From: Trichocoleus desertorum NBK24
GTDB taxonomy: Bacteria > Cyanobacteriota > Cyanobacteriia > FACHB-46
Length of the DNA: 64,000 bases
Assembly: GCF_030409055.1 (NCBI RefSeq)
Contig: NZ_CP116619.1
Span: 1,998,628 to 2,062,627 of the forward strand
Direction of reading: 5' to 3'
Shown here: piece by piece, positions 12,426 to 18,880 of the stretch
Layout: each line of letters begins with the position of its first letter
How positions within the stretch are numbered: the stretch's first letter is position 1
Program-made: the position numbers and the translations under genes
Notes under the pieces: generated by a model
What the model was told of the DNA's origin: nothing
The model's database searches: none
What the model saw: the letters and a program-made list of their open reading frames with translations, nothing else

Positions 12426-12609
12426 CCCGGATGCTATCTAGAGGCTATTGGATTGAACCAAGACGCTATTAGTACATAAATACTATAATAGTGTGGAAGC
12501 GCAACAGCTCGATTCAGTCTTAAAAAACAGTTGATTTTTCAGCGTTTCAGGGTGGTTATTACCCTAAAATACGACCTCTACAGGCACCCTATATGTAGTG
12601 ACTATAAAC

Positions 12610-12638
12610 TACAATAGATCTAGTGAGATTCAAGTTCT
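12610..12638 (+). promoter_or_regulatory. predicted promoter -10 and first copy of the ATTCAAGTTCT element
   Basis: A -10 hexamer TACAAT lies at 12610-12615. Six bases later comes AGTGAGATTCAAGTTCT, placing the expected transcript start at the A of AGTG (12622). The ATTCAAGTTCT core is at 12628-12638 and the ATG follows at 12643. No good -35 was found; a further TATAAT lies upstream at 12484. If the start is right, the whole 5' leader is essentially this element. Confidence 0.55.
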
Positions 12639-12642
12639 AAAT

Positions 12643-13026
12643 ATGCAGATCGGTCGCTTTTTTTCGTTACAGCAAGGTCGCGTCGGTCAATACTTATCAC
12701 CCCGAGTTTTAGTCGTGCGAAGTCCTTTTCAGAAGTTGCCCAAATCGGGTGGGCCTGCCGCAGCTTGCTACTTCGGTTTCGACAAATTAAGCAAGGCTCA
12801 ATCTTTCGCGAAATACCTCTCTGGCCTTGGTTACAACTATCAGCTCCGACGGGGAAAAATGCTGTCTCAGTACGCCTATGAGATCGCTTTGCGAGAGCAT
12901 ACAGACCTCGCAAAGGTCTTAGCCTATTGGGATCGGATGGATCTAAAACGGCCCAAATCAAGTGCCAGTCAAGCTGATATTCGCGATCGCGCCCTACAAG
13001 CTGTGCCTCTAGTTTTGGCTGCTTGA
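12643..13026 (+). CDS. small protein of unknown function
   Basis: I do not recognise this 127-residue protein. It begins MQIGRFFSLQQGRVGQYLSP, is basic, and has no signal peptide or membrane helix. The middle (FGFDKLSKAQSFAKYLSGLGY) looks like a folded alpha/beta unit, and the C-terminus is an alanine- and arginine-rich helix. The start at 12643 was chosen over the longer frame because the conserved upstream element and predicted transcript start lie just before it. It is the first of four neighbouring small genes carrying the same upstream 11-mer. Confidence 0.65.
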   Translation: MQIGRFFSLQQGRVGQYLSPRVLVVRSPFQKLPKSGGPAAACYFGFDKLSKAQSFAKYLSGLGYNYQLRRGKMLSQYAYEIALREHTDLAKVLAYWDRMDLKRPKSSASQADIRDRALQAVPLVLAA

Positions 13027-13052
13027 GCGTGACGCAGTGGGCTTGTTTTCTC

Positions 13053-13102
13053 TTGAAAACGTGGTGGTGATACACTACAATAAATACAGTGATTCAAGTT
13101 CT
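13053..13102 (+). promoter_or_regulatory. predicted promoter with second copy of the ATTCAAGTTCT element
   Basis: TTGAAA (13053-13058) and TACAAT (13076-13081) are separated by 17 bp, a near-consensus sigma-70 type promoter. AGTGATTCAAGTTCTT begins at 13088, again six bases after the -10, so the expected RNA starts with the element. The flanking CACTACAATA block is shared with the first copy (12608-12616 region). Confidence 0.7.
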
Positions 13103-13108
13103 TGCGCC

Positions 13109-13387
13109 ATGACTAAGCACTACATTCTCAGCGTGGACCCAACCGCCAAATATGACTGGGATCGTTGCACCCTCCGCGACCCCATCACCGCCAATCGCCC
13201 TGACCTAGCTGAGCTGATTGCTGAGGCAGTGGGGAAAGCGGCTGGCTCCTATTTGGTAGCGGTCAATATTGAAGTTCAAGTGTTAGAACAAACCGCACCG
13301 AATGCTCAAACGAAGCGCCTGCTTCCGAGTGATCTGGACGCAGCAGTGCGATCGCAGCGAGTGCAGTTAGAAGAATTAGCTGCGTAA
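13109..13387 (+). CDS. small protein of unknown function
   Basis: This 92-residue protein (start MTKHYILSVDPTAKYDWDRC) is not recognised. It is mixed alpha/beta, acidic in the middle and ends in a charged helix (SDLDAAVRSQRVQLEELAA). It has no membrane segment. ATG at 13109 was chosen because it follows a strong promoter and the shared element by 6 bases. There is no Shine-Dalgarno, so translation may be near-leaderless. It lies 82 bp after the preceding small gene but has its own promoter. Confidence 0.65.
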   Translation: MTKHYILSVDPTAKYDWDRCTLRDPITANRPDLAELIAEAVGKAAGSYLVAVNIEVQVLEQTAPNAQTKRLLPSDLDAAVRSQRVQLEELAA

Positions 13388-13412
13388 TTTAGGCTGATGC
13401 CTATTGCTTTCC

Positions 13413-13439
13413 AGGCTGAGTTGCTGTTCTCCTCAGCCT
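13413..13439 (+). terminator. hairpin between small genes, possible weak terminator
   Basis: AGGCTGAG (13413-13420) pairs with CTCAGCCT (13432-13439). No T tract follows, so it may be an RNA-stability or processing hairpin rather than a terminator. It sits 22 bp upstream of the third ATTCAAGTTCT copy. Confidence 0.4.
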
Positions 13440-13461
13440 CCGATTGATTCCTAACACTCAC

Positions 13462-13472
13462 ATTCAAGTTCT
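13462..13472 (+). promoter_or_regulatory. third copy of the ATTCAAGTTCT element
   Basis: The 11-mer is identical to the other three copies. The preceding AGTG is replaced by TCAC and no -10 is seen at the expected spacing. A Shine-Dalgarno-like AGGGAAG follows before the ATG at 13496. Confidence 0.6.
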
Positions 13473-13495
13473 TAGTTTGCTTAGGGAAGATATTT

Positions 13496-13870
13496 ATGAA
13501 ATTCAGCATCAGCCAGTATCCTGCCGCGATCGCTCAAGCTGCTCAAGCGGTGAATGAGCTAGAACACCAAATTGGGGAAGCCCGCCAGCATATTGCGCGC
13601 TTAGAAGGCAATGCTGACATGGTCGTGGCATTTGAAACCAACCTGAAAAATGACAACCAACGCAAGGCTCGTCGCTTTGAAGTGCTGCAAGCCAACCCTG
13701 AATACCAACACGCGATGGATGCCCTGCTGCGTCTGAGCACTGAGAAATCTAATGCGCTGGCTCATCTAGAGCATTTGCGGAATGAGTTTAGCGTCGCCAA
13801 GTTAGAAGCGCGTCTAGCGATCGCTCAGCAGCTCACTGGTTTAGAGACCCGCGAGTTTGTTGGGCTGTAA
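13496..13870 (+). CDS. coiled-coil protein of unknown function
   Basis: This 124-residue, almost wholly helical protein is not recognised. Heptad-like stretches run from AVNELEHQIGEARQHIARLEG (about residues 20-40) to SNALAHLEHLRNEFSVAKLEARLAIAQQL (about 83-111), so it probably forms an antiparallel or oligomeric coiled coil. There is no signal or membrane helix. A strong terminator follows at 13927. It is the third gene in the shared-element group. Confidence 0.7.
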   Translation: MKFSISQYPAAIAQAAQAVNELEHQIGEARQHIARLEGNADMVVAFETNLKNDNQRKARRFEVLQANPEYQHAMDALLRLSTEKSNALAHLEHLRNEFSVAKLEARLAIAQQLTGLETREFVGL

Positions 13871-13926
13871 GCAGCTAACTGTTAAGCTTTTCTCTTCTCA
13901 AAGCCATTTTTGAGAGGAATGTAGTG

Positions 13927-13955
13927 GCAGTAGGACCCTTGTCCTGCTGCTTTTT
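13927..13955 (+). terminator. Rho-independent terminator
   Basis: GCAGTAGGAC, a CCTT loop and GTCCTGCTGC are followed directly by TTTTT. This ends the transcript of the preceding small genes, so the HTH gene at 14093 needs its own start or read-through. Confidence 0.9.
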
Positions 13956-14015
13956 GCTTGAATATTTAACTGTTGTTTCCCACACGATTACTTATAAAAA
14001 TCACCAGAAATAAAA

Positions 14016-14062
14016 AAGTGGCCCCCGCCGCGAGGTGAAGGTCACTTAGTGATTCAAGTTCT
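14016..14062 (+). promoter_or_regulatory. hairpin plus fourth copy of the ATTCAAGTTCT element
   Basis: AAGTGGCC (14016-14023) can pair with GGTCACTT (14040-14047). Immediately after comes AGTGATTCAAGTTCTTA, with the 11-mer core at 14052-14062. The right arm CACTT could alternatively pair with the AGTG of the element, offering two exclusive folds. A GGGAGG ribosome-binding site lies just before the ATG at 14093. Confidence 0.55.
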
Positions 14063-14092
14063 TAATTTAAGCCTAGTAGATGAGGGAGGTTT

Positions 14093-14497
14093 ATGCAAGA
14101 AAATGTGGTGGAATTAATCCGAGAGCTGATGAAAACTCAGCAGATGAGTATTCGCAAAATCTCGGCACGAATCGCTAAAGAGCATGGAGGCAGCGCTTTG
14201 GGCTATACTCAGCAAATTAATCGAATCCTGAATGATTCGGACTACGATCCCAATTTTTCTACCGTTCAAAAAGTGCTTGCTGCTCTCAATTGTTCTTTCT
14301 GGCAATTGACGACCGCTCAGAGAAATTTTGACTTCCAAGCGATAGAAGGACGCTTAGATCGCTTTGATACGGAAATTACAGACTTAAAGTTGGCAATTGA
14401 CCAACTTCGTGGATCAGTTGAAGAATTGGTGCAAGAATTACGGCCTAATCAGCCAGAAGTAAAGCGACCATCAGCTTCTATTCATTCGTCTAGTTAA
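14093..14497 (+). CDS. HTH (XRE-like) DNA-binding protein with C-terminal coiled coil
   Basis: This is a 134-residue protein. Residues 1-70 form a five-helix XRE-like domain, with MSIRKISARIAKEH as the first helix pair and GYTQQINRILND as the probable recognition region. Residues 80-115 form a coiled coil (RLDRFDTEITDLKLAIDQL), suggesting oligomerisation. It has a good GGGAGG ribosome-binding site. A 7-bp gap to the next gene implies an operon. It is the obvious candidate regulator of the shared-element group, but that is inference. Confidence 0.8.
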   Translation: MQENVVELIRELMKTQQMSIRKISARIAKEHGGSALGYTQQINRILNDSDYDPNFSTVQKVLAALNCSFWQLTTAQRNFDFQAIEGRLDRFDTEITDLKLAIDQLRGSVEELVQELRPNQPEVKRPSASIHSSS

Positions 14498-17643: not shown

Positions 17644-18880
17644 CAGTAGATCGCAAATTCATTCCAGAGCGGGTAAGTAGATGGCTGTGATGACTGGAAA
17701 ATGCCGCTCCACTGCCTGGGACAGGAATTCCAGCATTGTCTTGAGGGCAAACAGTTCTCGGTAAACCACTCGCCCTCCTCGTTGTGTCCGACTGATAAAG
17801 AACCACAGCAAATACACCCAAAGATTGACTAGGACAAACGCTAGAGCGACAAACAGAAAGCGGGTTACAGGATTTTTACTCGTGGTGCGGATGCGACACT
17901 GGTTCTTGATCCTGTAACTGGTTTCAATGCCAAAACGGTCTCTGTAATGCCGATGGGTCTGGTGCAGGGCAACCTTCACCCGATGCAGCACATAGACAGT
18001 GTATTGAATCCCATGCTTGCCCTTGAGCCCTTTGTAATAGTTACAAATGACCCGCATCTGACAGCTGACCGAACCATACTGGGGACTGTTGAGGGTGTAG
18101 GGTGTCTGGTAGCTGCGCCGTCCCCTTAGCAGTTGACGGGTTCCTCCAGTTTTGCCCCGAATCACCGCAGGCATCAGGAAGGGAATCTGCAATGCCTTCA
18201 GCCAACGGATGACAGGGACACTATAAAACCCTCGGTCCAGGTAAAGCCGTTTGACTCGGACTCGCAGCGGACTCAACCTCGCGAGCAAATAAGTCAGGGT
18301 CGCCACTAAGGTTTCTTGACGATGCACTGCATGAATCCCTAGGGTCACACGTTTGTGACGACAGACAACATAGACTGTGGCATAGGCGAAGAATGAGGTA
18401 GTTCCAGCTTTAGCTTGAGAGCGGTAGATGTAGGGAGCCTCCACCTCACTTGGGTTGCCGTAGTAGGGAATTAAGTGTAAATCGATGGCAATGCGATGCT
18501 GCCTTCTGCAAATCTTGGGTGGAATTCGGCTTTGCAGAGCCGCATTGAGTTGGCTCTCCAGTGTGGCCATCTCATCCAACTTATCCAAGTGATAGCGGAT
18601 ACCATTACCACTGGGTGTACCTTGCAAGCGTTGAGCCGTGTGTTCGATGCTATCGCCTCGGCTGGCAGCCCGCAGCAGGATCTCGAATAGGTCTTGGGGG
18701 GTGTATCCGCCTTTCATGTTCAGTGGAACAGACTCGAGTAGACAATCAAGGGCAGCTTCCAGTGTCCCTTCATCGGTCAGAGCGGGAGCAGGAGATAATG
18801 AAGATGGGTAGGTCGTCATGGCTTGATCTAATGCTTTTAGCCTGACCCTACCCCTTTCCTAGAGAATTTGCGATCTACTG
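17644..18880. mobile_element. insertion sequence, ISH3-type, intact
   Basis: The ends are perfect 17-bp inverted repeats: CAGTAGATCGCAAATTC (17644-17660) and its complement (18864-18880). They are flanked by a direct 5-bp target duplication AGTCT (17639-17643 and 18881-18885). The element is 1237 bp and holds a single full-length DDE transposase on the minus strand. Perfect ends and duplication suggest a fairly recent insertion. Family assignment rests on the transposase. Confidence 0.93.
17659..18819 (-). CDS. IS transposase (DDE, ISH3-like)
   Basis: This is a 386-residue transposase. The catalytic acidic residues are apparent as Asp in IAIDLHLIPYYG (about residue 114), Asp in LYLDRGFYS, and Glu in RFGIETSYRIKNQ, with the Y-R-x-x-x-E-type signature and a hydrophobic C-terminal region. 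These features match ISH3-family enzymes found in archaea and cyanobacteria. No frameshift or internal stop is present, so it is likely active. The gene nearly fills the element. Confidence 0.92.
   Translation of the reverse strand: MTTYPSSLSPAPALTDEGTLEAALDCLLESVPLNMKGGYTPQDLFEILLRAASRGDSIEHTAQRLQGTPSGNGIRYHLDKLDEMATLESQLNAALQSRIPPKICRRQHRIAIDLHLIPYYGNPSEVEAPYIYRSQAKAGTTSFFAYATVYVVCRHKRVTLGIHAVHRQETLVATLTYLLARLSPLRVRVKRLYLDRGFYSVPVIRWLKALQIPFLMPAVIRGKTGGTRQLLRGRRSYQTPYTLNSPQYGSVSCQMRVICNYYKGLKGKHGIQYTVYVLHRVKVALHQTHRHYRDRFGIETSYRIKNQCRIRTTSKNPVTRFLFVALAFVLVNLWVYLLWFFISRTQRGGRVVYRELFALKTMLEFLSQAVERHFPVITAIYLPALE

Follow-up and report, generated by a model that had tools for sequence, protein, structure and literature searches.

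A repeated 11-mer in gene leaders of Trichocoleus desertorum NBK24 as probable landing site of a ~52-nt small RNA

Introduction

In the cyanobacterium Trichocoleus desertorum NBK24, four adjacent small genes (g1 to g4) are each preceded by the same 11-mer, ATTCAAGTTCT, which raises the question of what this element does and whether it does so in the same way before each of them. A sequence-only reading of the locus had regarded the copies as equivalent parts of one control element uniting the four genes as a regulon, with the HTH protein g4 as candidate regulator. Gene layout, complementarity, conservation, co-occurrence, and matched changes point to another answer: with a probability of about 0.88, the 11-mer is the landing site of a ~52-nt trans-acting base-pairing small RNA (sRNA), probably blocking translation. 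That the sRNA is transcribed, where exactly its 5' end lies, and that it represses its targets instead of activating them is what we infer from these data.

The 11-mer in the window and in the genome

Within the window, i.e., the whole stretch of 64,000 nt analyzed, ATTCAAGTTCT occurs in four exact copies (12628-12638, 13092-13102, 13462-13472, and 14052-14062), all on the plus strand and one each before g1, g2, g3, and g4, as had been reported from the sequence. The accompanying statements also hold: no further copy exists in the window, even with up to one mismatch allowed, and protein coding does not explain the repetition. Dinucleotide shuffles led to an expectation of 0.09 copies in the window, with none of 100 shuffles reaching the four observed. 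The distance from the 11-mer to the start codon is 4 nt for g1 (ATG at 12643), 6 nt for g2 (13109), 23 nt for g3 (13496), and 30 nt for g4 (14093). The genes concerned are:

12643..13026, plus strand: g1, 127 aa, candidate sRNA target; open reading frame with orthologues, no Pfam family
13109..13387, plus strand: g2, 92 aa, conserved candidate sRNA target; orthologues in 76 of 80 loci
13496..13870, plus strand: g3, 124 aa, coiled coil, candidate sRNA target; 41 invariant columns over ten genomes
13926..13955, plus strand: intrinsic terminator after g3
14093..14497, plus strand: g4, HTH protein with weak HTH_3/HTH_26 matches below the Pfam cut-offs, divergent to the sRNA promoter

For comparison, 80 cyanobacterial loci with g3 were collected, subsets of which also contain g1, g4, and g5. 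Searches of Pfam, NCBIfam, PADLOC, PHROGs, and PDB (sequence and fold) returned nothing useful on the function of g1 to g3, and no relatives of g2 were found in phage and plasmid records.

In the complete genome (5.46 Mb, one contig), 14 exact copies of the 11-mer were counted, compared with five of the reversed control pattern. Two of the ten copies outside the window are in leaders as well, on the sense strand and at 18 nt (c1) and 21 nt (c4) from the start codon; c1 and c4 belong to a second cluster 1.7 Mb from the window. The remaining eight have no comparable placement, being mostly within reading frames and in a few cases possibly intergenic; in one case (L009), an ATG follows after 39 nt. 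Any of these eight that the sister genomes have in common is in coding sequence. The idea that the full complement resides in an sRNA gene elsewhere in the genome was dismissed, as the other exact copies of this and the sister genomes are mostly coding and no intergenic one is shared. The relevant literature searched contained no mention of ATTCAAGTTCT.

Comparison of orthologous loci confirmed conservation of the 11-mer upstream of orthologues, all four window sites being retained in both sister species (G001 and G002). In Leptolyngbya-like lineages, the form ATTCA(A/G)GTTCT is kept 5-7 nt before the ATG of g2 and 29-32 nt before that of g4, with diverging flanks. A recent duplication of promoter regions, or mere chance, would be conceivable in view of the three adjacent target genes and the partly similar flanks of g1 and g2, but this conflicts with the low expected copy number, with the two additional leader copies 1.7 Mb away, and with a motif conserved where its flanks diverged; in view of this conservation, we consider such an origin of the repeats refuted.

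A putative sRNA gene at the fourth copy

Besides the 11-mer, the aligned g4 leaders share an A-run, a hairpin with covarying stem, and a conserved AG-NN-TA. On the minus strand, this region has the layout of a short gene:

14012..14063, minus strand: putative sRNA gene of ~52 nt, AAGAACUUGAAUCACUAAGUGACCUUCACCUCGCGGCGGGGGCCACUUUUUU, its 5' end placed according to the -10 box
14048..14063, minus strand: 5' seed AAGAACUUGAAUCACU of the sRNA, whose complement forms the "fourth copy" at 14052-14062
14093..14098, minus strand: -35 box TTGCAT, overlapping the g4 start codon and partly constrained by g4 coding
14070..14075, minus strand: -10 box TAGGCT, with T1, A2, and T6 kept in 13 of 13 loci
14012..14047, minus strand: intrinsic terminator (hairpin and U6), indicated by stem covariation, terminator scan, and folds

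The promoter in the window reads TTGCAT-N17-TAGGCT. Across 13 loci, the minus-strand order is TTGCAT, 17-18 nt, TANNCT or TANNGT, 6-9 nt, AGAACUUGAAU, the terminator hairpin, and a T-run, giving a predicted sRNA length of 51-53 nt; in one genome (G022), the seed is GUAACUUGAAU in place of AGAACUUGAAU. The promoter scores below the threshold of a consensus promoter scan, and the hairpin of the window sRNA is moderately (1.6-1.8 sd) better than those of shuffled sequences. The stem pairs of the terminator covary among aligned homologues, and all ten distinct homologues folded show an open 5' seed and a 3' hairpin; seed nucleotides 1-14 have a mean unpaired probability of 0.97. With ~52 nt including the terminator hairpin, there is little room for a protein. 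No curated covariance model of Rfam 15, with Yfr and other listed RNAs among the families covered, matched above its gathering score except for rRNA, the best weak match (20 bits versus a cut-off of 80.4) being on the other strand.

The four copies differ in their apparent roles. Those before g1, g2, and g3 are best understood as antisense target sites in mRNA leaders, while the copy before g4 would be the seed of the minus-strand sRNA. The earlier proposal of a regulon element is upheld, the equivalence of its copies is not, and the regulon probably extends beyond the four genes, as c1 and c4 also carry leader copies.

Distribution of the sRNA and its independence from g4

A covariance model (R1) built from ten sRNA sequences detected the locus in the window with 75.9 bits (E 7.8e-14) and, within 390 genomes of the class, a single clear sRNA copy in each of 19 genomes belonging to three families. 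Two further weak matches in one small-genome family are probably due to chance.

The relation between sRNA and g4 can be read from loci where only one of them occurs. In L113 (genome G104), the sRNA is kept between g3 and g5, with no g4 reading frame there. It comprises a promoter of the form TTGCCG-18-TAGCCT, seed, and terminator; TTGCCG is at the right place without g4, and g2 still bears the target site. A predicted promoter and terminator of its own accompany the sRNA in 13 loci as well as in L113. Conversely, G020 and G053 possess g4 and lack the 11-mer sites.

Six loci (L106, L107, L110, L112, L115, and L116) have a short g3-g5 gap, no sRNA, and a lost or altered g2 site. Target-like g2 leaders, with no sRNA found, are present in L108, L110, and L116. 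In G094 (L245), the g2 target is intact and the sRNA gene looks degenerate, with the seed AAAAACTCGAACCC; either the sRNA was lost recently or the assembly differs.

Target sites and pairing with the seed

The sRNA seed is conserved, predicted to be unpaired, and complementary to mRNAs encoded elsewhere. In the window, the following sites were located:

12628..12638, plus strand: target site in the g1 leader, 11 pairs, -20.4 kcal/mol; kept in G001 and G002
13087..13103, plus strand: target site in the g2 leader, 16 contiguous pairs, core 13092-13102, -23.6 kcal/mol
13462..13473, plus strand: target site in the g3 leader, 12 pairs, -16.7 kcal/mol; kept in G001 and G002

In the second cluster, the leaders of c4 and c1 offer 15 and 12 contiguous pairs with the seed, respectively (19 for c1 in G002). 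Duplex energies of the sRNA with the 63 open reading frame leaders of the window average -9.9 (sd 4.8). Of 1,000 shuffles per leader, none reached the observed energy for g1, g2, and c4, one did for c1, and seven for g3, whose pairing is only moderately better than that of shuffles. All five sense-strand leader sites of NBK24 (g1, g2, g3, c1, and c4) are retained in the sister species where readable. A GU-tolerant form of the target pattern is given by RGTGRTTYRRGTTYTT.

Pairing of the g2 leader with the sRNA of the same species comprises 12-16 contiguous nucleotides in all 11 sRNA-bearing species tested. For 35 sRNA-less species, the best-pairing of all seeds was taken in each case, which gave a median of 8 pairs, with four species reaching 11 (Fisher 1e-7, a value serving as a guide only because related species are not independent). 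Matched changes between both partners add to this picture. In L109, the sRNA has a G and the target a C where others have A and T, and in G022 one extra nucleotide is present in seed and target alike, so that the own pair scores 14 versus 10-11 for swaps. The common target change CAAG to CAGG retains a G-U pair. The g2 site is widespread, but no genus other than this one showed the sites of g1, g3, c1, and c4, a pattern suggesting that new targets have been recruited. As judged from these comparisons, g2 is the putative ancestral target of the sRNA, and without the sRNA its site usually appears to decay.

In the g2 leader, the 11-mer is located downstream of a conserved sigma70 promoter, at a distance to the -10 box that varies between 10 and 21 nt and at a constant distance to the ATG; this arrangement indicates an mRNA leader element. 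It would also fit a single-stranded leader RNA motif recognized by an RNA-binding protein, with the copy at 14052 as one more such site, and CAAG at -14 to -11 is frequent in other cyanobacterial g2 leaders, where it may be a weak Shine-Dalgarno sequence. However, such a motif explains neither the conserved minus-strand promoter, the polarity of the terminator, and the uniform length, nor the retention after loss of g4, nor the matched changes between the g2 and 14052 copies, making it highly improbable compared with base pairing by an sRNA.

Several other readings of the 11-mer were rejected. A sigma70 promoter element does not agree with the variable spacing to the g2 -10 box, and the targets share no downstream hexamer. 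The Shine-Dalgarno reading of the 11-mer itself was likewise discarded. Inspection by eye disposed of a T-loop-like or hairpin-loop element in the g2 leader, whose pairs neither g3 nor the CAGG variants retain, and of complementarity to 16S rRNA, which shows a mismatch in the window version.

A palindrome accompanying g4 and the LexA box of relatives

A second type of site was found over the promoters of g1 and g2:

12594..12613: palindrome TGTAGTG-N6-CACTACA (two mismatches or fewer) over the g1 -10 box
13060..13079: the same palindrome (two mismatches or fewer) over the g2 -10 box
13053-13058 and 13076-13081: g2 promoter, TTGAAA and TACAAT

In six genomes, 11 of 13 genome-wide matches to this palindrome are upstream of g1 or g2. 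Where g4 is present and the promoter of g1 or g2 can be read, the palindrome has at most two mismatches, compared with at least four in most other loci. Since the palindrome accompanies g4, the latter is probably a repressor of g1 and g2 acting via this site. The nomination of g4 as regulator through the 11-mer has therefore to be revised, as g4 is probably not the factor reading it.

This bears on the possibility of a DNA operator, in which a transcription factor such as g4 would read the 11-mer just past each transcription start. Its location immediately downstream of the g2 sigma70 promoter and the HTH gene within the cluster would be in line with an operator. Yet, the 11-mer is asymmetric and always in the same orientation, holds its distance to the ATG rather than to the -10 box, is kept in L113 with no g4 at the locus and absent from G020 and G053 with g4, and does not track g4 as the palindrome does; an operator would also leave the minus-strand promoter and terminator unexplained. 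We consider it very unlikely, and an operator of g4 in particular was rejected.

The cyanobacterial LexA box (consensus RGTACNNNDGTWCB; PMC3091678) was detected at the g2 promoters of relatives in 36 of 75 loci (e.g., L134, L139, L173, L109, and L113), in none of 80 g3 leaders, and in none of 24 g5 leaders. Neither at the 11-mer nor anywhere else in the window does this consensus occur; the 11-mer, in distinction to the site found at g2 promoters of many relatives, is not a LexA box. By these promoter motifs, g2-g3 look like unrecognised SOS-regulon genes, and the locus seems to have shifted from LexA control to putative control by g4 and the sRNA.

Proposed mechanism

The promoter described above, with its -35 box at the g4 start codon, would drive minus-strand transcription of the ~52-nt sRNA, which would consist of the unpaired 5' seed followed by the intrinsic terminator. 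The predicted partner of this seed is ATTCAAGTTCT in the mRNA leaders of g1, g2, and g3 and of the distant c1 and c4. The last 15-20 nt before the AUG of g1 and g2, with the ribosome-binding region, would be hidden in the duplex; on g3, c1, and c4, it would lie just upstream of this region, ending 18-23 nt before the AUG. Most likely, translation initiation would be blocked and the target mRNAs destabilized, an outcome favored because inhibition and mRNA decay are established sRNA biology.

A variant of this explanation accepts the sRNA as real and sees it mainly as a cis-antisense RNA of g4 or as an activator of its trans targets. The sRNA overlaps the whole g4 leader and its promoter the g4 start codon, and sRNAs that activate are generally known. 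The conserved and matched trans sites, the persistence of the sRNA without g4, and the position of the g1 and g2 sites, where pairing would hinder ribosomes, speak against this variant. We hold this variant to be unlikely and prefer a repressing, trans-acting sRNA.

More tentatively, the sRNA could have taken over control of g2, a gene with a LexA box in many relatives, in this clade and then recruited g1, g3, c1, and c4 by gain of sites. Since its promoter overlaps the start of g4, transcription of sRNA and repressor may be mutually exclusive, which would form a compact RNA/protein switch. This scenario is less likely than not and clearly more speculative than the sRNA itself.

Comparison with known sRNAs and significance

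Short intergenic RNAs pairing with several mRNAs, as proposed for the new sRNA, are represented in cyanobacteria by PsrR1 (131 nt) and IsaR1 (68 nt), which have photosynthesis and iron targets; PsrR1 pairs with the ribosome-binding regions of psaL, psaJ, chlN, and cpcA (PMC6202907). In contrast to both, the sRNA described here is only ~52 nt long with the seed at its very 5' end, three of its five targets are neighbours, and the target genes have no known function. Yfr1, another cyanobacterial trans-acting sRNA (65 nt in Synechococcus elongatus PCC 6301; PMC6202907), resembles it in being very short, carrying a terminator at its end, and acting in trans, but differs in sequence and target (sbtA) and is widespread, whereas only three families within 390 genomes have the new sRNA. 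Divergent cis-antisense RNAs are comparable in so far as the sRNA is antisense to the g4 leader; unlike these, it combines conserved targets in trans with persistence after g4 has been lost. The best reading is a new family of base-pairing sRNA of the known multi-target kind, matching no listed family.

Taken as a computational case, the evidence for a new cyanobacterial sRNA family is strong, with defined borders, a conserved target, and matched seed-target changes. The sRNA and its sites offer a natural series in which gain and loss of target sites can be followed beside presence and absence of the sRNA, and they link RNA-based control to g2-g3, which are LexA-boxed in many cyanobacteria. 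On a more general level, a leader motif common to several genes can conceal an sRNA gene on the opposite strand.

The second cluster and other features

The second cluster (L015, G000:C1:3722000-3736000) harbors two sRNA target sites. It further contains an XRE regulator and M78 peptidase pair, c5 (DUF6745), the paralogous coiled-coil proteins c1 and c3 (phrog_29668), and c4 (phrog_27831), which has relatives in Microcystis phages. The c1 orthologue in G001 and the c4 orthologue in G002 (L051 and L046) have stop codons and are apparently decaying, with their sRNA sites intact. In the window itself, positions 1-1892 hold the end of an rRNA operon (23S, 5S), and a 386-aa open reading frame on the minus strand (17659-18819) gives, upon reading, the impression of a transposase.
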